Shown one piece after another: positions 876 to 7,993 of a stretch of 16,902 bases of DNA. The stretch comes from Brevundimonas sp. (lineage in GTDB: Bacteria > Pseudomonadota > Alphaproteobacteria > Caulobacterales > Caulobacteraceae). Position 1 is the first letter of the stretch. Each line of letters starts with the position of its first letter. The position numbers were made by a program, and so were the translations under genes. The stretch is taken from contig JADGMZ010000244.1 in NCBI GenBank assembly GCA_015234495.1, positions 1 to 16,902 of the forward strand. Direction: 5' to 3'. The notes below the pieces were generated by a model that worked only from the letters and a program-made list of their open reading frames with translations, made no database searches and had not been told where the DNA came from.

Positions 876-1001
876 ATGTCTGCCTTCGTCGAAGCCCTGA
901 GATCGCTGCTCGCCCTTTACGGATTCGGCTCCCGGATTCAGCGGCGGCGGCCCGCCCCTGTCTATATCGGACGGTCCGGCGCAGGCGGGCCCCGGCTCTA
1001 G
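876..1001 (+). CDS. Possible small protein (41 aa), doubtful
   Basis: An ATG with GGAG 9 nt upstream opens a 41-codon frame on the strand opposite to the flagellar genes. It overlaps the stop codon of the FljJ-like flagellin by 3 bases. The product begins MSAFVEALRSLLALYGFG, a possible short amphipathic helix, then turns Arg- and Gly-rich. About three quarters of third codon positions are G or C, lower than in the surrounding genes, and the frame overlaps a terminator-like inverted repeat and a promoter candidate. I do not recognise it. It may be a chance ORF. Confidence 0.2.
   Translation: MSAFVEALRSLLALYGFGSRIQRRRPAPVYIGRSGAGGPRL
949..991 (-). terminator. Terminator-like stem after the FljJ-like flagellin
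   Basis: Eight bases, GGCCCGCC (949-956), pair with GGCGGGCC (984-991), enclosing a loop that itself contains the near-palindrome CGGACGGTCCG. It begins 7 bases after the flagellin stop codon. There is no U-tract, so it could protect the mRNA 3' end or act with Rho, and is not a classic intrinsic terminator. Confidence 0.3.
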
Positions 1002-1834
1002 CCGCCGCGGAACAGCGACAGGATGATCTGCGGCGCCTGGTTGGCGATCGACAGCGATTGCGCCCCGAGCTGCTGCTGCACCTGCAGGGCCTGAAGCCGG
1101 GCGCTCTCCTTGGCCAGATCGGCGTCGACGAGGTTGCCGATCCCTGATTCAAGGGTGTCGACCAGCTTGGTGACGAAGGTGTTGTGCGCCTCGACCTGCT
1201 TGGCCTGGGAGCCCAGCTCGCCGAGCGCCGCGTTCAGCTGGGTGATCGAAGCGTCCAGACGACCCAGGGCCTGGGTTGCGCCGGTCAGGGTCATCAAACT
1301 GTCCGACAGGGCCAGTTCGATGATGGAGCCGCCGAGGTTGAGGTTCTTGGCCGACAGGGTCACGAACGAACTGGCGTCGGCGTTGGCCAGGAAGCGGATG
1401 CCGGTCGAAAGCGACCCGTCGAGGATGTTGCCGCCGTCGAAATTCGCGTTCTCCACCGCCGAGGCGATGGCCCGCAGCAGCGCCTGGAAGTCGCCGTTGA
1501 GAAGCTGGCGGGACTGGGTCTTCAGCGAGGAGTCCTTGGCCGCGACCACCTTCTCCTTCAGCTGGTTCAGCAGGTCGGAGATGGATTCGCCGGCGGACAG
1601 GGCCACGTCGGCGATCGAGGTCGCCCGGTCGAGGCTCTGCTTCACCGCGCTGAGGGCGCCGACATCCGCGCGCTGCTGCTGGGCGATGGCCCAGATGGCG
1701 GCGTTGTCCTTGGCGCCCTGCACCTTCAGGCCGGTCGAAATGCGGCTCTGAACGTCGCCGAGACGCTCGTTCGTGCGCGCCAGGTTCTGCAGCGCGATGG
1801 CGGCGGAAGTGTTGGTGTGGACGCTGTTCGTCAT
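998..1834 (-). CDS. Flagellin, FljJ-like (278 aa)
   Basis: Flagellar filament subunit, exported through the flagellar type III apparatus. The N-terminal D0/D1 part (about residues 1-140, opening MTNSVHTNTSAAIALQNL) and the C-terminal part (about 200-278, with LVDADLAKESARLQALQ and ending LFRGG) are typical. The middle is short, as in Caulobacter flagellins. The ATG at 1834 is used because it begins at the conserved flagellin N-terminus. An upstream in-frame GTG (1885) would add 17 unlike residues. AAAGG lies about 10 nt upstream. It differs clearly from the second flagellin (SRISTGLKVQGAKDNAAIWAI versus NRINTGKAISSAKDNGAIWAI). Its place next to flaEY and the lack of a sigma54 motif upstream point to the FljJ type, which in Caulobacter is a minor, specialised flagellin. 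The exact paralogue assignment is inferred. Confidence 0.9.
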   Translation of the reverse strand: MTNSVHTNTSAAIALQNLARTNERLGDVQSRISTGLKVQGAKDNAAIWAIAQQQRADVGALSAVKQSLDRATSIADVALSAGESISDLLNQLKEKVVAAKDSSLKTQSRQLLNGDFQALLRAIASAVENANFDGGNILDGSLSTGIRFLANADASSFVTLSAKNLNLGGSIIELALSDSLMTLTGATQALGRLDASITQLNAALGELGSQAKQVEAHNTFVTKLVDTLESGIGNLVDADLAKESARLQALQVQQQLGAQSLSIANQAPQIILSLFRGG

Positions 1835-1885
1835 CCGACTCGGCCTTTCAGGTTTGGCCAAGGCTAGAAGGCGAACGGTGCACAC

Positions 1886-1893
1886 ATGGTTAA
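1886..1893 (-). promoter_or_regulatory. CtrA-type half site upstream of FljJ-like flagellin
   Basis: The minus strand reads TTAACCAT, the octamer associated with CtrA binding in alphaproteobacteria, 51 bases before the flagellin ATG. A second TTAA lies at 1913-1916, but the spacing is not the TTAA-N7-TTAA of a full CtrA box. Binding is therefore inferred, not shown. Confidence 0.4.
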
Positions 1894-1965
1894 CGGTCGT
1901 TCACCACGCGTCTTAACCGCGCGGATCGCTCCTGCGCGGCGGGGTCTTGCGGATACGCTGTGGCG

Positions 1966-2253
1966 TCAGGCCTTGGTGTCGATCACCGCGCCGGCGCTGT
2001 ACTGAACCGCCTGCATAAGATCGACGACCTGTTCGCGCGGCAGTTGCTTGACGACCTCGCCGGTGATCCGGTCGAGGGTCTTGTAGATGAAGGACCCCGA
2101 CTGCGGTCCTTCCTCGATCACCAGGCGATAGCGGGCAGCGCGTTCGGCTTCCTGCGCAAACCTGGAATCGTGGAAATCGCCGCTCGCGGTCGACGCGGCG
2201 GCGGGCTGGACGGCGATGGCGCCGATCGGGATTATCCTGTCATTGCTCTGCAT
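1966..2253 (-). CDS. flaG: FlaG family flagellar protein (95 aa)
   Basis: Small flagellar accessory protein of the FlaG family (PF03646), whose members influence filament length or assembly. The family signature is in the C-terminal half (about residues 43-85): LVIEEGPQSGSFIYKTLD followed by GEVVKQLPREQVVDLM. The first 40 residues are Ala- and Ser-rich and probably disordered, as is usual. Its ATG has a strong AAGGGAGAG immediately upstream. It sits between the two flagellin genes, 91 bases after the FljK-like gene and 131 bases before the FljJ-like gene, all on one strand. I saw no promoter of its own, so it may depend on read-through past the hairpin at 2309-2331. Confidence 0.85.
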   Translation of the reverse strand: MQSNDRIIPIGAIAVQPAAASTASGDFHDSRFAQEAERAARYRLVIEEGPQSGSFIYKTLDRITGEVVKQLPREQVVDLMQAVQYSAGAVIDTKA

Positions 2254-2308
2254 CTCTCCCTTCGCCGCCGGTCAGGACGGCGTCTCCGTGATGCGGCCCG
2301 GATCGGTC

Positions 2309-2331
2309 GGGCGGGGCGCGAGGCCCCGCCC
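2309..2331 (-). terminator. GC-rich hairpin between FljK-like flagellin and flaG
   Basis: A perfect 9-bp inverted repeat (GGGCGGGGC at 2309-2317, GCCCCGCCC at 2323-2331) with a 5-nt loop starts 13 bases past the flagellin stop. No U-run follows on the minus strand. It may be a partial terminator or an mRNA-stabilising element that lets flagellin outnumber FlaG. Confidence 0.5.
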
Positions 2332-2344
2332 TTCCGGTCGATCC

Positions 2345-3178
2345 TTAGCGGAACAGTCCGAGCAGGATGGAGGTCGAGGAGTTGGCGATCGACAGCGCCT
2401 GCACACCCAGCTGTTGCTTGGTTTGCAGAGCCTGGAGTCGGGCGCTTTCCTTGGCCAGATCGGCGTCCACCAGGTTGCCGACGCCGGCTTCCAGGGCGTC
2501 CTGGAGCTTGCCGACGAAAGTCAGGTGGGTGCCGAACGACTTGGAGCCGGTGCCCAGGCGAGCCAGGGAGGCCGACACGTTGTCGATCGAGGTGTTGACC
2601 AGACCCAGGGCCGTATCGGCCAGGGTCGAGGTACCGATGGTGGTGGTTGCGGTCACGGTGACCTGGCCGCCGCCCAGGGTCAGGTTTTCACCGTCCACCT
2701 TGATGGTGGTGCCGGCCGTGTTGGCCAGCGCCTGGTAGCCCGCCGTCCCGGTCGAATTGTCGAGCAGGTTGACGCCATTGAACTTGGCGTTCGTGACGAC
2801 CGTGGCGATCTGGTCGCGGATGGCGGTGAAGTCCTCGTTGAGGGCCGCGCGCGCCGAAGTGGTCAGGCTGGTGTCCTTGGCGGCGAGCGCCTTCTCTTTG
2901 AGCTGGAGAAGCAGGTCGGAGACCGACTCGCCAGCCGCGAGAGCGACGTCCACGGCCGACTGGCCACGGTTCAGACTGTCCTTGACGGCGTTCAGGGCGC
3001 CCATTTCGGCGCGTTGGCCCTGGGCGATGGCCCAGATGGCGCCGTTGTCCTTGGCGGACGAGATCGCCTTGCCGGTGTTGATCCGGTTTTGAACCGTTTG
3101 CAGTTCCTTGTTCGTGACCGACAGGTTCTGCAGGGCGATCATTGCGCCCACGTTCGTGTTAACGCTGTTCAGCGCCAT
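2345..3178 (-). CDS. Flagellin, FljK/FljL-like (277 aa)
   Basis: Main-type flagellin. The N-terminus (MALNSVNTNVGAMIALQNL) and C-terminus (NLVDADLAKESARLQALQTK through to LLGLFR) closely follow the Caulobacter FljK/FljL pattern as I remember it, and the length is typical. The ATG at 3178 is chosen for this conserved N-terminus and for AAGGA about 10 nt upstream. An upstream in-frame start at 3256 would lie before the predicted transcription start. The gene has a convincing sigma54 promoter and an upstream palindrome array, so it should be a late flagellar gene activated by FlbD-like protein once the hook-basal body is complete. In Caulobacter, flagellin mRNA of this type is also controlled by FlbT at the 5' UTR. 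Confidence 0.92.
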   Translation of the reverse strand: MALNSVNTNVGAMIALQNLSVTNKELQTVQNRINTGKAISSAKDNGAIWAIAQGQRAEMGALNAVKDSLNRGQSAVDVALAAGESVSDLLLQLKEKALAAKDTSLTTSARAALNEDFTAIRDQIATVVTNAKFNGVNLLDNSTGTAGYQALANTAGTTIKVDGENLTLGGGQVTVTATTTIGTSTLADTALGLVNTSIDNVSASLARLGTGSKSFGTHLTFVGKLQDALEAGVGNLVDADLAKESARLQALQTKQQLGVQALSIANSSTSILLGLFR

Positions 3179-3209
3179 GGCACGTAGTCCTTCTTTCAAG
3201 GTGTCCGAC

Positions 3210-3239
3210 GCCATTTTGGCTGCCGGGAGCATTTTGCTC
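3210..3239 (-). promoter_or_regulatory. Twin mini-hairpins in flagellin 5' UTR
   Basis: Two small perfect stem-loops lie side by side in the predicted leader, 6 bases apart: GAGCA/TGCTC (3227-3239) and GCCA/TGGC (3210-3220). On the transcribed strand both have the same three-base AAA loop. The first begins within about two bases of the predicted transcription start, and both lie upstream of the AAGGA ribosome-binding site. They are candidates for a FlbT/FlaF-type translational or stability control element. This role is an inference. Confidence 0.4.
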
Positions 3240-3251
3240 GACAGGGTCCGC

Positions 3252-3267
3252 AGCAAGGACGGGACCA
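3252..3267 (-). promoter_or_regulatory. Sigma54 (-24/-12) promoter of the FljK-like flagellin
   Basis: The minus strand reads TGGTCC-N5-TTGCT, compared with the consensus TGGCAC-N5-TTGCW. The GG and GC have the exact 10-base spacing, and only two of the eleven consensus positions differ. It places the transcription start near 3241 and a leader of about 63 bases before the flagellin ATG. The ftr-like array lies 75-131 bases further upstream, the usual arrangement for Caulobacter late flagellar genes. Confidence 0.8.
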
Positions 3268-3341
3268 GTCGCCCCGCGGCCGTGCCAGATCACCTGCCCT
3301 TGTTTTCGCTGCGTTAGTTCCTGTTAAGCACGCCGCCCGAA

Positions 3342-3398
3342 CGGACGTTTCTGCCGGGCCCACGGCAAGTTTTGCCGGGCGGTCGGCACAATTTGCCG
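3342..3398 (-). promoter_or_regulatory. Three ftr-like palindromes at exact 21-bp spacing (FlbD-type sites)
   Basis: Three 15-bp inverted repeats of the form CGGCA-N5-TGCCG lie at 3342-3356 (imperfect, CGGAC at one end), 3363-3377 (perfect) and 3384-3398 (perfect). Their starts are exactly 21 bp apart, two helical turns, so all face the same side of the DNA. They resemble the ftr elements bound by FlbD upstream of sigma54 flagellar promoters in Caulobacter. The binding protein is inferred from sequence likeness and position. Confidence 0.75.
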
Positions 3399-3427
3399 CG
3401 TCCAGGGGCGACAGTCGTCAGCGGCGC

Positions 3428-3715
3428 TCATCGCCAGCGGTCCTGCAGGGCGCGTTCGGCGCGCAGGGTCTCGACGGCCAGGCGACGCGCCGCGTCGCAT
3501 TCTGCGAGGGCCAGGCCTCGCGCCATATAGGAGGTCTCAAGGTCGGCCAGCGTCGCCGCCTCCGGCAGTCGATCCAGGCGGCACGGCGTCACCGCTTCTC
3601 TCGGCAGGGTCAGGCGCGGCGGCGTCACAGACGGCGGGGGCGAGGCGGCACAGCTCGCGATCATGAGCGCGCAGGCGAGCGGCGCGAGCGGGGTGGAGCG
3701 GTTGATCGGCGTCAT
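3428..3715 (-). CDS. Rz1-like outer-membrane spanin lipoprotein (95 aa), embedded in Rz
   Basis: The start at 3715 lies inside the Rz-like gene in another frame, as with lambda Rz/Rz1. Here the gene also extends 109 bases past the end of Rz. The ATG has AGGA about 10 nt upstream. Residues 1-22 form a short lipoprotein signal with lipobox IAS-C22. The mature part starts with a proline-rich stretch (ASPPPSVTPPRLTLP), the hallmark of Rz1-type o-spanins, and then a charged helical tail (about 55-95). Such lipoproteins pair with an inner-membrane spanin across the periplasm and fuse the two membranes at the last step of lysis. It is the last gene of the lysis operon. Frame, lipobox and context all agree, but the sequence itself is not one I recognise. 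Confidence 0.75.
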   Translation of the reverse strand: MTPINRSTPLAPLACALMIASCAASPPPSVTPPRLTLPREAVTPCRLDRLPEAATLADLETSYMARGLALAECDAARRLAVETLRAERALQDRWR

Positions 3716-4022
3716 CGGCGTTCCTGGCTTGGGCGTCGGCGGCCGCGGTCGTCCGGGCCAGTTCGACGGATTGTCGGTGTTGATGGTCGAGCCGGCGGGC
3801 CAGATCGGCGGCGCCTTCCGCCTCGAGGCGACGGGCGCGCGCGTCATCGACGGCGGCCCCGGCGCGGCGCTCGGCGGACTCCAGCCGCCGCTCGCCGATC
3901 CCGAACGGGTCCCAGTGCAGACCCAGCCCGCGACCTAGGAGCGCGAGGACGGCGGCCAGGGCGACGGCGCACAGCAGCCAGCCCAGCGGGGTCAACGCCC
4001 TGAGAATCAGGCGCGGGCTCAC
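3537..4022 (-). CDS. Rz-like inner-membrane spanin (161 aa)
   Basis: Residues about 10-31 (LTPLGWLLCAVALAAVLALL) form one N-terminal membrane anchor. After it comes a long charged, helix-prone segment (about 43-105, many Arg, Glu and Ala), as expected of an i-spanin crossing the periplasm. The C-terminal 59 residues are translated from DNA that also encodes the Rz1-like lipoprotein. The ATG overlaps the endolysin stop codon as ATGA, implying coupled translation. The topology and gene order identify it more than sequence does. A generic small membrane protein is the alternative. Confidence 0.7.
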   Translation of the reverse strand: MSPRLILRALTPLGWLLCAVALAAVLALLGRGLGLHWDPFGIGERRLESAERRAGAAVDDARARRLEAEGAADLARRLDHQHRQSVELARTTAAADAQARNADDADQPLHPARAARLRAHDRELCRLAPAVCDAAAPDPAERSGDAVPPGSTAGGGDAGRP

Positions 4023-4402
4023 GGGAACGCCTTCCGATCGAGTTCGATGTGCGGCCCGTCGCGCAGCGTCGGCCAGTCGCCGCCCCAGACGATGGCGGTC
4101 CCCTGCCGCACGGCGGCGGCCTTGAAAGCCGCGGCGATGCGCGGATACAGCGGCCAGTCCCAGCGCACCTGGCCGTCGACCACGGCCGCGACGTCGATGG
4201 CGTGGCCGGTCAGGTGACGCGAGCGCCAGGTCCGGCTGGCCCCGGCGCGGACCAGCAGGGCCTGGCGCGCCCTGGTCCGCAGCCCCTCAGTGATCATGAA
4301 GTCGACCGGGCTGAGGGCGATGGCCTCGCGGGCCAGGGCGGCGAGCCGGGGGTGGACGCCCTCGAGCCGCTTCAGCGACCGGCTGGAAAGTGCGTAGCCC
4401 AT
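4019..4402 (-). CDS. Phage-type endolysin, M15 L-alanyl-D-glutamate peptidase (127 aa)
   Basis: Peptidoglycan-cutting zinc peptidase of the VanY/phage T5 endolysin group (M15), expected to cut the stem peptide between L-Ala and D-Glu. The zinc-site pattern is visible: H63 and D70 in SRHLTGHAID, and H118 in GPHIEL, with FMITEGLRT earlier (35-43) as in the family. The small single-domain size is normal. There is no signal peptide, so export to the periplasm should depend on the adjoining holin. The start ATG overlaps the holin stop (TGATG), and the stop overlaps the Rz start. An upstream in-frame extension to 4621 only reads holin DNA in the wrong frame. Confidence 0.88.
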   Translation of the reverse strand: MGYALSSRSLKRLEGVHPRLAALAREAIALSPVDFMITEGLRTRARQALLVRAGASRTWRSRHLTGHAIDVAAVVDGQVRWDWPLYPRIAAAFKAAAVRQGTAIVWGGDWPTLRDGPHIELDRKAFP

Positions 4403-4686
4403 CAGCGCCCCTCCCCGTCCAGCGGCCGGCGCAGGGAGCGCAGACCGGCGATCAGTTGCTGCGCCGTCGGGGCCACGAGGTAGAGGATCATGGTCAGGGC
4501 CAGCAGCGCCATCAGCGCCCGCGCCAGCGACAGCGCCGCCTCGGGCGGGGTCAGGGCGATCAGCCGGTCGAGCAGCAGCCAGGCCGCGCCGGTGCTGGCG
4601 AAGACATAGAGCCGGCGCCACAGCCAGCGGCCCTCCGCCAGCGGCGACGGCGCCGGCGGCGGAGACGGATCGGCAGGGCGGGTCAT
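4402..4686 (-). CDS. Holin-like protein with two membrane segments (94 aa)
   Basis: The protein has a proline-rich cytoplasmic head (residues 1-18), a basic WLWRRL, a first hydrophobic segment (about 25-46), a second (about 54-72, LARALMALLALTMILYLVA) and a short basic tail (RSLRRP). This is the layout of small two-TM holins or phage holin-like proteins, which make the membrane lesion that releases the endolysin. It starts at 4686, where its ATG overlaps the stop of the preceding 51-aa ORF (ATGA). It ends overlapping the endolysin ATG. No family-specific motif is visible, so the holin call rests on topology plus location. Confidence 0.7.
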   Translation of the reverse strand: MTRPADPSPPPAPSPLAEGRWLWRRLYVFASTGAAWLLLDRLIALTPPEAALSLARALMALLALTMILYLVAPTAQQLIAGLRSLRRPLDGEGR

Positions 4687-4838
4687 CGGTCGTCCTCCTG
4701 TTGTTCGAAAGGCCAGTCCCCGGCGCGCCACTGGCCGGCCGTTTCGAGGATGAAGTCCTGATCGGTCAGCCGGTCCGGCGTCTCGAGGACGTCGCGGTCG
4801 AGCATCGCGGTTTCGGTCGGACAGCGTCGGCGGGTCAT
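4683..4838 (-). CDS. Small acidic protein of the lysis operon (51 aa), unknown
   Basis: An open frame with an ATG 5 bases after the DUF2793 stop codon and with AGGGG about 8 nt upstream. Its TGA overlaps the holin ATG as ATGA, so it is tightly packed into the operon. The product starts MTRRRCPTETAMLDRD and is acidic after that, with WRAGDWPFEQQEDD near the end and no membrane segment. I do not recognise a family. The position suggests a holin regulator (antiholin-like) or a fibre chaperone, but neither can be shown from sequence. It is short enough for automatic annotation to miss it. Confidence 0.6.
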   Translation of the reverse strand: MTRRRCPTETAMLDRDVLETPDRLTDQDFILETAGQWRAGDWPFEQQEDDR

Positions 4839-4843
4839 GGCGC

Positions 4844-6322
4844 TCACCCCTGCGCGATCAGCCAGACGCAGCCGGCCGCGCCGGCTCCGCCCGCGCCGCC
4901 TGCGGTTTCGCCAGCGCCACCGCCGCCGCCTCCGCCGCCCGCATTTCCGCCGACGCCGCCGTCGCGCCCCGGGCCGGTCGCCGAGGCCGAGCCGCCCCCG
5001 CCTCCGCCGCCCGCCCAGTGGAGACCCGGTTGGGGCGACGCCGCGTCGGACAGACCGGCGGCGCCGGACCCGCCGGCCCCGCCGACCGCCTTCACGGCCA
5101 GAACGCCGCCGTCTCCGCCCGCACCGCCGGAACGCATCGCGCCCCCCGCGTCCAGGCCGCCGCCTCCGCCGCCGCCGCCGGGCCCGTCAGGCCGGTCGAG
5201 GCTACGTCCGGATCCGGCCGTCGCCGCAAGGCTGGAGTCGCCGCCGCCGTTGGCGACCGGCGCACCTGCGCCGCCAGGGCCTCCGAGGCCGCTGCTCGCA
5301 TCGCCCAGATCGCCGCCTCCGCCGCCGGCGGCGATCAGCAGGACAGTGGAGCCGAGTGAGACGACGGAGTCCCCGCCGTCCCCGCCGGCGGCGGCGGCGC
5401 CGGCCGCGCCGCCTTCGCCGACCGTCACGGTCAGGCCCGCCGACAGCAGGTCCGCCGGCCAGACGCCGCGGCCGAGTCCGCCGGCGCCGCCGCCGCCTCC
5501 GCCAAAGCGGGCGCCCGAGGCGCCGAACGCCCCGGCCCCGCCGCCCCCGCCGCCGCCGACGGCGACCGCCTCGACGGTCCGCGCCCACGATGGCGCGGCG
5601 TAGTCGCCGTCGGCGGTCAGGACCGTCACCGTGCGGCGGGCGGCGCCCTGGTCAAAGACGATCCGGCCGGACGCCCGGTCCACCGACCAGACATCGCGCC
5701 AGATCGCCCCGTCTGCGCTGACCTTCAGGCGCAGGTCGTCATCGCCGATCAGGCCCAGTTCGGCCCGCCCGCCCCAAGCGCTCTGGAACAGCAGCGACAG
5801 GACGTCCGTCGCCCCTTCCTTGTTGAGGGTCAGACGCAGGTCGCCATCGCCGCCCTCGCCGACGCCCAGCGCCGTCCAAAGCGCCTTGTTCAGCCGCGCC
5901 GCGAACGGATTGACGGCGTCCGCGGTCGTCCCCAGTCCGAGCCGGTCCAGCCCCTGGATCGCCTCCAGCCGCTCGCCGAGCGGGACCCAGCCGCCGGCGT
6001 GGCGGACCACCAGTTCGGCGGCGTCGGTCACCAGGGCGATCAGCCCGTCAGCCGCCTCGACCATGCTCCAGCCGCCGGCCTCGGCGCGCAGCAGTGCGCC
6101 CTCGGGGCGGCCCTCCCAGGCGGGCCCGGTCGCCCCGTCCGGCAGAATGTACAGCGCCCCGTCCGGCGGTGCGGCGGGCTGGGTCGGCTCGGTGCGGCTG
6201 ACGACGGCGGTCTGGACCACGGCGTCGAGCCGGGTCAGGGCCTCGTTCAGCGTCACATGCTTCTGCATCTGGCCGGCCGCCAGATAGGGCAGGCCGAGGC
6301 GGGCGGTTTGGTCGTCGCTCAT
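4844..6322 (-). CDS. DUF2793 phage-type protein with polyglycine fibre tail (492 aa)
   Basis: Residues 1-115 match the DUF2793 pattern common at the end of alphaproteobacterial prophage and gene-transfer-agent structural clusters (TARLGLPYLAAGQMQKHVTLNEAL, GALYILPDG, AWEGRPEGAL, GGW repeats). Residues 116-230 form a linker with a second structured segment (GLIGDDDLRLKVSADG, WRDVWSVD). From about 240 a glycine-rich domain begins (ADGDYAAPSWARTVEAVAVG, then many runs of Gly) and continues to the C-terminus CVWLIAQG. Such domains fold as packed polyglycine-II helices in some phage adhesins. The likely role is a tail or head fibre that contacts the host surface. It is the first gene of the lysis operon in this window. 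GGAG lies about 9 nt before the ATG. Confidence 0.8.
   Translation of the reverse strand: MSDDQTARLGLPYLAAGQMQKHVTLNEALTRLDAVVQTAVVSRTEPTQPAAPPDGALYILPDGATGPAWEGRPEGALLRAEAGGWSMVEAADGLIALVTDAAELVVRHAGGWVPLGERLEAIQGLDRLGLGTTADAVNPFAARLNKALWTALGVGEGGDGDLRLTLNKEGATDVLSLLFQSAWGGRAELGLIGDDDLRLKVSADGAIWRDVWSVDRASGRIVFDQGAARRTVTVLTADGDYAAPSWARTVEAVAVGGGGGGGAGAFGASGARFGGGGGGAGGLGRGVWPADLLSAGLTVTVGEGGAAGAAAAGGDGGDSVVSLGSTVLLIAAGGGGGDLGDASSGLGGPGGAGAPVANGGGDSSLAATAGSGRSLDRPDGPGGGGGGGGLDAGGAMRSGGAGGDGGVLAVKAVGGAGGSGAAGLSDAASPQPGLHWAGGGGGGGSASATGPGRDGGVGGNAGGGGGGGGAGETAGGAGGAGAAGCVWLIAQG
4868..5560 (-). repeat. Glycine-codon low-complexity tract of the fibre gene
   Basis: About 690 bases encode the polyglycine part of the DUF2793 protein, with repeated GGC/GGA/GGG triplets and short GGxGG(A/D) units. 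On the plus strand the same DNA appears as long proline- or arginine-rich open frames, which are shadows. The triplet character means that copy-number slippage would usually keep the frame. Confidence 0.75.
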
Positions 6323-6480
6323 CAGAAAGGTCTCCGAAAACTGTCGAAGACCAGTCTGGGGCCGCCCGCTCCTCAGGCGCGTTCAGGACGCTGACTCGAG
6401 ACCCATCTTGTGGAATATCAATGGGTAAGGCTCGAAAAGTATGATGACAGTCGGCGAAATGCCAGCACTCGATACCGCCG

Positions 6481-6960
6481 TTAGTCGTGCAGGTAGACGA
6501 CCCGCCGAAGCCCGCCCTTGGCCCGCATCTCGGCGAGGTGACGCTCGTGCTCGCCCGAGGCGCGCGCCTCGCGTTCGTTGGCCTCGACCCAGTGGGTGGT
6601 CTCGATGTCCTTCTGCAGCGCCCTGGCCGCCATCAGGTGGCCGGGAAACAGGACGTCGACGACATTGGGCACGAAATCGAGGAAGGGCACCTCGCCGATG
6701 GCCGTGGTCACGCTGTCCAGTCCGAGATAGGCCGCCATCCGCGCCACGGTGGCCGGCGAGGCCTTGACCCGGGCGGCCTGGACCAGCAGCCAGCCGGCCG
6801 CGCCGAGGCTGTAGGCTGTGCCCACCACCGGCACCCAGGTCAGCAGGCCATCGAGGCCGACGCCGAAGGGTCCGATCCCAATGGCGCGGTCGGAGAGCTT
6901 CTTCACGCCCTCGACATTGGTCCAGATTTTCTCGATATCGCCGATGGTCCGTCTGGCCAT
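6481..6960 (-). CDS. DUF4112 family membrane protein (159 aa)
   Basis: The protein matches the DUF4112 pattern: a hydrophilic start, then SDRAIGIGPFGVGLDGLLTWVPVVGTAYSLGAAGWLLVQ (about 23-61) with a Gly- and Pro-containing hydrophobic hairpin, then GEVPFLDFVPNVVDVLF (about 88-104) and a charged tail. The function of the family is unknown and the protein is probably membrane-embedded. The start at 6960 is supported by a strong GGAGG 6 nt upstream. An in-frame extension to 6993 lacks one. It diverges from the EEP-family gene with only 31 bases between start codons, so the promoters must overlap or lie inside the coding parts. No functional link to the phage module is evident. Confidence 0.8.
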   Translation of the reverse strand: MARRTIGDIEKIWTNVEGVKKLSDRAIGIGPFGVGLDGLLTWVPVVGTAYSLGAAGWLLVQAARVKASPATVARMAAYLGLDSVTTAIGEVPFLDFVPNVVDVLFPGHLMAARALQKDIETTHWVEANEREARASGEHERHLAEMRAKGGLRRVVYLHD

Positions 6961-6991
6961 TCCAACCTCCGAAGCGGGACCGTAACGCGCC

Positions 6992-7993
6992 ATGACGACG
7001 CCTGTTCACCGCGGCCTGCAAGCCCTGCGTCGACGGCGACCGCATCGGAGCGGAACGTCCCGACCGCTCGCAGGCCTCGTCCGTCTGGCGATGACCATCC
7101 CGCTTGGCCTGGCCCTGATCGCCCTGTCGGGGATCGGCCACCGCGGGTTCGACATTCTGGCCCAGTTCACCGCGCCGGCGCTGGCGGGGACGGCGATCCT
7201 GAGCCTCCTGCTGGCGCTGTTCCGGCTGCGGACGGCGGCGCTGATCGGCCTCGTTTCCTGTCTGGCCCTGCTGGCGGCCGTCGGCCCGCAGTGGTTTCCG
7301 GGCGGACCGCGGCCCGACGAGGGCGCCCCGTTGCTGCGGCTGTATTCAGCCAACCTGTGGGCCCGGAACACAGACGTCGAGGCGATCGCCGCCTCGGTCC
7401 GGGCCGCCGACGCCGATGTGGTGGTGCTGATCGAACTGGGCGACGCGCCGGCGGCGCGGCTGGACGAGGTTCTGGCCGGCTATCCGCACCGGATAGCGAC
7501 GCGACGCCTTGATCGCGCCTCCGGCCCGGCCCGGTCCCTGATCGCCTCGCGGCTGCCGCTCGTGGCCATCCGCGACCGGCCCGATGGTCTGCACGCCGTC
7601 GGGGCCAGAGTGCAGTCGCCGCTGGGGCCCGTGAACGTGCTCGGCGTCCACCTGACCCGGCCGTGGCCGTTCCAGGAACAGTGGGGCCAGATCAGCCAGA
7701 CCATGGCCCTGGCGGCGGTGATCGACGACCTCGACGGGCCGGTGGTCGCGGCAGGCGACTTCAACAGCGTGTCCAGCGCCCGCATCGGCAAGCAGGTGCG
7801 GCGCGACCTGGGCCTGCATCCGACGCCCGGTTTTCCGGGCACCTGGCCGGCCTTCCTGCCGGCCGCGTTCGGCATGACCATTGACCAGGTCTACGTCTCG
7901 CCGGACCTCGCCTTCGTCAGCCGCCGGCTGGGCCGGGCCACCGGCTCGGATCACCGGCCGGTGGTGACGGAGATCACCCGGGCCGCCCGGTGA
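6992..7993 (+). CDS. Membrane-anchored endonuclease/exonuclease/phosphatase (EEP) family protein (333 aa)
   Basis: The C-terminal two thirds carry the EEP metal and catalytic motifs in order: SANLW (Asn), VLIELGD (Glu), LGVHLTRPWP (His), AAGDFNSV (Asp/Asn), IDQVYVS (Asp) and TGSDHRPV (Asp-His). The N-terminal third has about three hydrophobic helices (roughly 35-48, 62-78, 83-96), so the catalytic domain is probably tethered at the membrane and faces the periplasm. The substrate may be a phosphodiester of nucleic acid, phospholipid or inositol type and cannot be read from the sequence. The ATG at 6992 has only a weak upstream GCGGGA. Met34 (7091) just before the first helix is an alternative start. 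The 3' end overlaps the convergent CCA gene by 20 bases. Confidence 0.82.
   Translation: MTTPVHRGLQALRRRRPHRSGTSRPLAGLVRLAMTIPLGLALIALSGIGHRGFDILAQFTAPALAGTAILSLLLALFRLRTAALIGLVSCLALLAAVGPQWFPGGPRPDEGAPLLRLYSANLWARNTDVEAIAASVRAADADVVVLIELGDAPAARLDEVLAGYPHRIATRRLDRASGPARSLIASRLPLVAIRDRPDGLHAVGARVQSPLGPVNVLGVHLTRPWPFQEQWGQISQTMALAAVIDDLDGPVVAAGDFNSVSSARIGKQVRRDLGLHPTPGFPGTWPAFLPAAFGMTIDQVYVSPDLAFVSRRLGRATGSDHRPVVTEITRAAR

Follow-up and report, generated by a model that had tools for sequence, protein, structure and literature searches.

The window analysed in this study is a stretch of 16,902 nucleotides (nt) from Brevundimonas sp. (assembly GCA_015234495.1, contig JADGMZ010000244.1), which is contig C244 of a genome of 2.16 Mb and 75.8% completeness. 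It contains six tightly packed minus-strand genes (6322-3428), encoding a fibre protein, a 51-aa open reading frame (ORF), a holin-like protein, an M15 endolysin, and the spanins Rz and Rz1. This gene set had been proposed in the original prediction, and was recovered when the frames were re-read and compared with protein profiles (Table 1). The six genes probably form an accessory operon of the Brevundimonas gene transfer agent (GTA), which would give the particle its receptor-binding tail fibre and its exit from the cell. Genomes, contigs, and fetched loci are numbered below with G, C, and L, respectively.

Gene content of the operon

The fibre protein combines a DUF2793 domain with a glycine-rich region. 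DUF2793 is listed as a tail-fibre family of the Rhodobacter capsulatus GTA (RcGTA) that co-evolves with GTA genes (PMC10883770). The fibre protein also matched chain S, putatively the fibre, of the PDB entry 8gtc (E 3.5e-8). The entry belongs to the roseophage R4C; homology of its baseplate and fibre to RcGTA has been described (PMC10276861). The fibre N-domain has phage homologues in 58 records, and 52 of these are phages with names referring to Rhodobacter, Roseobacter, Dinoroseobacter, or Paracoccus.

The endolysin of the window has an intact M15 motif; across 39 loci, the H..G.A.D motif is kept in 38 and the PH motif in all. The nearest solved structure is ChiX (5opz, E 3e-36), and similar M15 enzymes occur in 1208 phage records. 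By identity (62%), the closest phage matches to the endolysin are in two honeybee-associated microviruses with genomes of 4.8 kb (MH992157.1 and MH992174.1). The holin-like protein and Rz matched no Pfam or PHROG family at E<=1, and were named from hydropathy, gene order, and conservation. Two hydrophobic segments are present in the holin-like protein in 35/39 loci, and its gene adjoins the endolysin gene in all 17 syntenic loci. For Rz1, a frame with a Cys and an RLxLP motif was found in 30/39 loci, 24 of which fit the lipobox pattern used. The 51-aa ORF matched no Pfam family and gave a single weak PHROG match (E 0.28); it is weakly conserved (33-38%) in L066, L074, L076, and L077. Neighbouring genes from the 51-aa ORF to Rz overlap by 1-4 nt, and Rz1 is mostly nested in Rz in a different frame.

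Table 1. Features of the operon and its upstream region (window positions).
Feature	Position	Strand	Basis
DUF2793 and glycine-rich fibre protein, 492 aa	4844..6322	-	DUF2793 E 1.9e-22; Gly_rich_2 E 4.7e-10
51-aa ORF	4683..4838	-	ATG-started form of a 54-codon frame from GTG 4847
Holin-like protein, 94 aa	4402..4686	-	Two hydrophobic segments (hydropathy)
M15 endolysin (L-Ala-D-Glu endopeptidase type), 127 aa	4019..4402	-	Peptidase_M15_4 E 2.6e-10; phrog_465 E 2e-54
Rz-type inner-membrane spanin, 161 aa, one transmembrane segment	3537..4022	-	Hydropathy; kept in 17 syntenic loci
Rz1-type outer-membrane lipoprotein, about 95 aa, putative lipobox IASC	3428..3715	-	LysC E 2.2e-4 (below the Pfam cut-off); phrog_456 (Rz-like spanin) E 0.0021
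GTA-type promoter core: CGCGCCTGAGG element, 12-nt GC-rich stretch, CAGACT (putative -10)	6352..6381	-	Common to GTA-type sites of the same genome; -35/-10 assignment putative
Presumed integration host factor (IHF)-like site TTACCCATTGATA	6416..6428	-	Sequence; similar AT-rich stretch in GTA promoters

The operon lies between a flagellin gene (2345-3178) and a DUF4112 gene (6481-6993), and both predicted flanks were confirmed. No capsid, terminase, or integrase was found among the window ORFs that were scanned or read, the library scan covering positions 998-6993. The flagellin genes adjoining the operon form a tandem (998-3178), whose copy number ranges from about 2 to 7 across the 17 syntenic loci.

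Conservation and descent in Brevundimonas

An endolysin match at E<=0.001 was found in 106/121 Brevundimonas genomes, so the presence of the module is not due to chance; by our own grouping 101 matches were strong and 5 weak, and 15 genomes had none. Synteny was analysed by searching 23 fetched loci, picked mainly for long contigs, with the window proteins. The original prediction had raised the question of whether the module keeps its place beside the flagellin locus. It does so in 17/23 loci, with the order flagellin - Rz - endolysin - holin - fibre - EEP - CCA, and DUF4112 is present in 15 of these. Among the six other loci, three carry an endolysin gene without synteny (L079, L080, and L082) and two carry divergent endolysins (L094 and L095), while in L096 (G022), which is the same locus, the fibre and endolysin genes are broken.

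The module genes follow the descent of their hosts and are inherited vertically. In 18 genomes, the Mantel correlation (r) with six flanking genes was 0.79 for the endolysin, 0.85 for the fibre N-domain, 0.88 for the holin, and 0.84 for Rz; 0/2000 permutations reached the observed values. The suggested dN/dS analysis (Nei-Gojobori, non-independent pairs, dS 0.05-1.2) gave medians of 0.24 for the endolysin, 0.36 for the fibre N-domain, 0.44 for the holin, and 0.48 for Rz, which overlaps Rz1; single pairs reach 0.65-1.13. These medians indicate constraint, and the module is a conserved locus rather than a remnant.

The CCA locus was fetched for 13 of the 20 genomes with a weak or no endolysin match, and the fibre gene was found there in eight. 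In three of them (G062, G111, and G057) the contig stops at the fibre, so that no statement on the endolysin is possible. Of the operon genes, G125 lacks only the endolysin and keeps the fibre, 51-aa ORF, holin, Rz, and Rz1. G101 and G108 have fibre and holin followed by flagellin, with neither endolysin nor Rz between them, and in G106 the fibre frame continues into Rz. The endolysin slot of G126 holds a GH19-type lysin (L234:7247-7819, minus strand), and by eye the genes after it resemble Rz and Rz1. In G068 the contig ends, and no window gene was matched at the CCA loci of G058, G063, G073, and G099. On a separate contig of G063 (L094), a divergent M15 endolysin, below the Pfam cut-off, and a phrog_456 spanin adjoin DUF4112 in a different arrangement. 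Of the findings that had been named as counting against a conserved module, gene decay thus affects a minority (G022, G101, G106, G108, and G125); this locus showed neither random placement nor the edge of a complete prophage.

Promoter similarity to the GTA core

The sequence upstream of the fibre gene resembles the promoters of the GTA core. A conserved CGCGCCTGAGGACGCTGG..TATAGT..TTGGGCATG arrangement lies upstream of the GTA small-terminase gene, and a CGCGCCTGAGG-like element is kept upstream of the fibre across the genus. GTA-core promoters were located by a pattern search, which matched 60/121 genomes with 0 control matches; it replaced a small-terminase query that located GTA starts in some loci only. 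A model (R1) was built from 36 GTA-core promoters only. It gave 9 matches at E<=5 (best 5.6e-8) across the 505,919 bases of 36 module loci, and another 3 across the 245,854 bases of 28 additional loci. All 12 matches in these 64 loci (0.75 Mb) end 43-51 nt before the start codon of the fibre gene. R1 matched none of 18 loci from other genera of the Caulobacteraceae.

The reverse search gave a similar picture. A model built from 34 fibre upstream regions (R2) produced 32 matches across 54 sources, 48 of which hold a GTA-core promoter by our own count; by position, 28 matches fall on GTA-core promoters, including the 26 best. An ungapped comparison within each genome was also made between the 105 nt before CGCTGG and the module locus (16,000-40,000 positions per genome). 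The stretch 30-60 nt before the fibre gene ranked first in 10/25 genomes and among the ten best in 14, with ranks of 22 to 814 in the remaining 11. For the window itself, the promoter likeness rests on seven R1 sites of its own genome, not on an R1 match. In comparison with these sites the fibre upstream region (6324-6486, four overlapping tied segments) came top of 5586 segments, with z 4.5. One of the seven sites precedes a portal-like gene, and the other six are intergenic elements. Genome-wide at E<=10, R1 matched at least 117/121 genomes, with at least 28 matches in one genome and at least 17 in that of the window. The model may also reveal further GTA accessory genes.

In the dispersed intergenic elements, a GTA-type (R1) promoter precedes the 16-mer GGTCTTTGACAAYCGA, which resembles an antitermination boxA. 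They were located on the G000 contigs C25, C31, C89, C193, C239, and C282 (L207-L210, L212, and L213), and in clade mates. The 16-mer is carried by 6/7 fetched R1 sites of the window's genome, which has 11 exact copies; 9/26 genomes searched were matched, with 0 control matches. In another clade, the R1 sites L214, L215, L217, and L219 (G107) and L226 (G113) precede the repeat GGAGGGCTCGTAAGGCCTGCGACCTTGCGGCGGCGGGAGCG instead. Rfam gave no match in 11 element loci and the window.

In Caulobacter crescentus, GafY and IHF activate the GTA promoters; there are about 20 GafY sites, and GafZ is an antiterminator (PMC11150451). A GafZ-type DUF6456 gene was found in 20/21 Brevundimonas genomes searched, the miss being the incomplete genome of the window. 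In four loci that were read, a small gene that appears helix-turn-helix-like by eye precedes the DUF6456 gene.

GTA distribution and alternative explanations

The GTA parts of the window's genome lie on other contigs: GTA_TIM on C130 (E 4e-128), the capsid gene on C54 (E 2.3e-204), and a portal gene, recognized by eye, on C18. In the genus, GTA_TIM was above the cut-off in 100/121 genomes, and a GTA-capsid query matched 107/121 at E<=0.001, a few of these matches being weak or paralogous. One suggestion of the original prediction was a GTA lysis and fibre locus apart from the head-tail cluster. This is favoured by the promoter likeness in both directions, by DUF2793 as an RcGTA fibre family, and by the conserved, vertically inherited position. 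The GTA-type promoter, which is probably dependent on GafY and IHF, would be fired together with the head-tail cluster located elsewhere in the genome. The DUF2793 fibre might be made first and joined to the particles. The holin would then permeabilise the inner membrane, and the M15 endopeptidase would cut the peptidoglycan peptides. Finally, Rz and Rz1 could disrupt the outer membrane, so that the producer bursts and fibre-bearing particles are released.

Several observations weigh against this assignment. The proposed co-occurrence with the GTA was not borne out: in 103 good genomes, endolysin and GTA_TIM were unassociated (Fisher p 0.42; 77 with both, 13 with the module only, 10 with GTA_TIM only, and 3 with neither, two partial-TIM genomes being scored as TIM-less), and the same holds for all 121 genomes (p 0.36). 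Both genes are near-universal, which leaves the test with low power. Four of the 17 syntenic loci belong to genomes that lack GTA_TIM (G096, G129, G109, and G115); the operon is still open in G096, G109, and G115, and the fibre frame is shortened in G129. Conversely, the GTA-positive genomes G101, G106, and G108 carry a damaged cassette. R1 gave no match above the threshold in the window itself or in 27/36 module loci, nor any at 20 gafYZ loci, and its sites also precede intergenic elements without a visible GTA role. The GTA-core promoter is retained in G096, G129, G115, G011, and G081, where GTA_TIM is missing or partial and the capsid is missing; it did not appear in the pattern search of the TIM-less G109. 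Because several TIM-less genomes still have this promoter, the loss of the GTA in the genus seems to be recent and repeated.

The unassociated distribution would also fit a general lysis operon, which shares the GTA activator and serves another purpose, such as altruistic death or the release of DNA or matrix, with the fibre as a binding or matrix protein. The GTA-type promoters that precede intergenic elements also speak for this explanation. However, DUF2793 is a family of particle proteins in RcGTA and in phages of Rhodobacteraceae, and the TIM-less genomes that keep the GTA-core promoter suggest that the GTA was lost recently, so this explanation is unlikely. The original prediction had also considered type 10 (holin-endopeptidase-spanin) secretion, by which the module would free proteins or the fibre from specialised cells without GTA particles. 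The enzyme set part of this claim stood: holin, M15 endopeptidase, and spanins are all present (holin and Rz by hydropathy only), the endolysin is nearest to ChiX among solved structures, and GTA-less genomes keep the module. Yet the ChiX match is unspecific, since similar M15 enzymes are common in phages. The first gene belongs to a GTA and phage tail-fibre family, the promoter is GTA-type, and no cargo gene was noticed beside the module, whose flanks are flagellin and DUF4112, although a cargo may be unlinked. A secretion role is somewhat less probable than general lysis.

A prophage remnant, also suggested originally, is the least credible explanation and may almost be set aside. Every gene is phage-like, related endolysin genes occur elsewhere in some genomes (L079, L080, and L082 lack synteny), and the cassette is damaged in a minority of genomes. 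Against this, the site is the same in 17/23 loci, the Mantel correlations of 0.79-0.88 with the flanking genes indicate common descent, and the genes are mostly open, constrained, and preceded by a GTA-type promoter.

Comparison with known release systems

No description of the operon was found in the titles and abstract openings of the searched literature, a scope that leaves subscription papers and most preprints outside. ChiWXYZ of Serratia, the type 10 system, consists of a holin, an endopeptidase, and two spanins. The Brevundimonas operon shares this composition, including an M15 endopeptidase close to ChiX, but is headed by a fibre gene and a GTA-type promoter, and no adjoining cargo was noticed.

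In R. capsulatus, the fibre and lysis genes are separate loci. As in the operon described here, the tail-fibre and holin-endolysin genes of RcGTA lie outside the head-tail cluster, with which they are co-activated; in Brevundimonas, however, fibre, holin, endolysin, Rz, and Rz1 are collected in one apparent operon. RcGTA genes are described as dispersed over five loci (PMC11409702), and GafA as binding both the GTA promoter and the lysis-cassette promoter (PMC6363796).

Within the Caulobacteraceae, DUF2793 was found in 57/119 genomes and 8/22 genera. Among 20 fetched DUF2793 loci, of which 18 belong to other genera, none was listed with a match to the window endolysin, holin, or Rz. In the genus g23, the fibre follows EEP and DUF4112 in 4/4 fetched loci, as in the Brevundimonas window. 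Behind the fibre region of G146 (genus g20) lie a phrog_7 endolysin (E 3.5e-21) and a gene with weak likeness to Rz (E 0.036); the site is different from that of the window, and the enzyme is non-homologous.

The C. crescentus GTA (CcGTA) is similar in belonging to the same bacterial family, and in its GafYZ-type regulators and DUF2793-like fibre gene. This gene (ccna_02456) is induced with the GTA (PMC9632790). CcGTA particles are reported to exit by LypABC, whereas a holin-endolysin-spanin set is present in Brevundimonas; PMC13236601 and PMC9632790 report no holin-endolysin homologue in C. crescentus. LypABC was found complete in only 4/11 GTA-encoding Caulobacter species (PMC13236601). For GTA exit from Caulobacterales cells, the operon offers a concrete candidate, whose genes and promoter can be named and which most Brevundimonas genomes carry. 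It is tentatively suggested, at slightly less than even confidence, that GTA exit in Caulobacteraceae is an exchangeable slot: particle fibre and cell lysis would share one transcript, in a fibre-lysis operon with a GTA-type promoter, and the release enzyme would be swapped. The variants of this slot, proposed just as tentatively, might be the M15 enzyme in most Brevundimonas, the GH19-type lysin in G126, and the phrog_7-type enzyme behind the fibre in g20, as against LypABC in C. crescentus. The finding suggests that release systems have been exchanged while the GTA core stayed.

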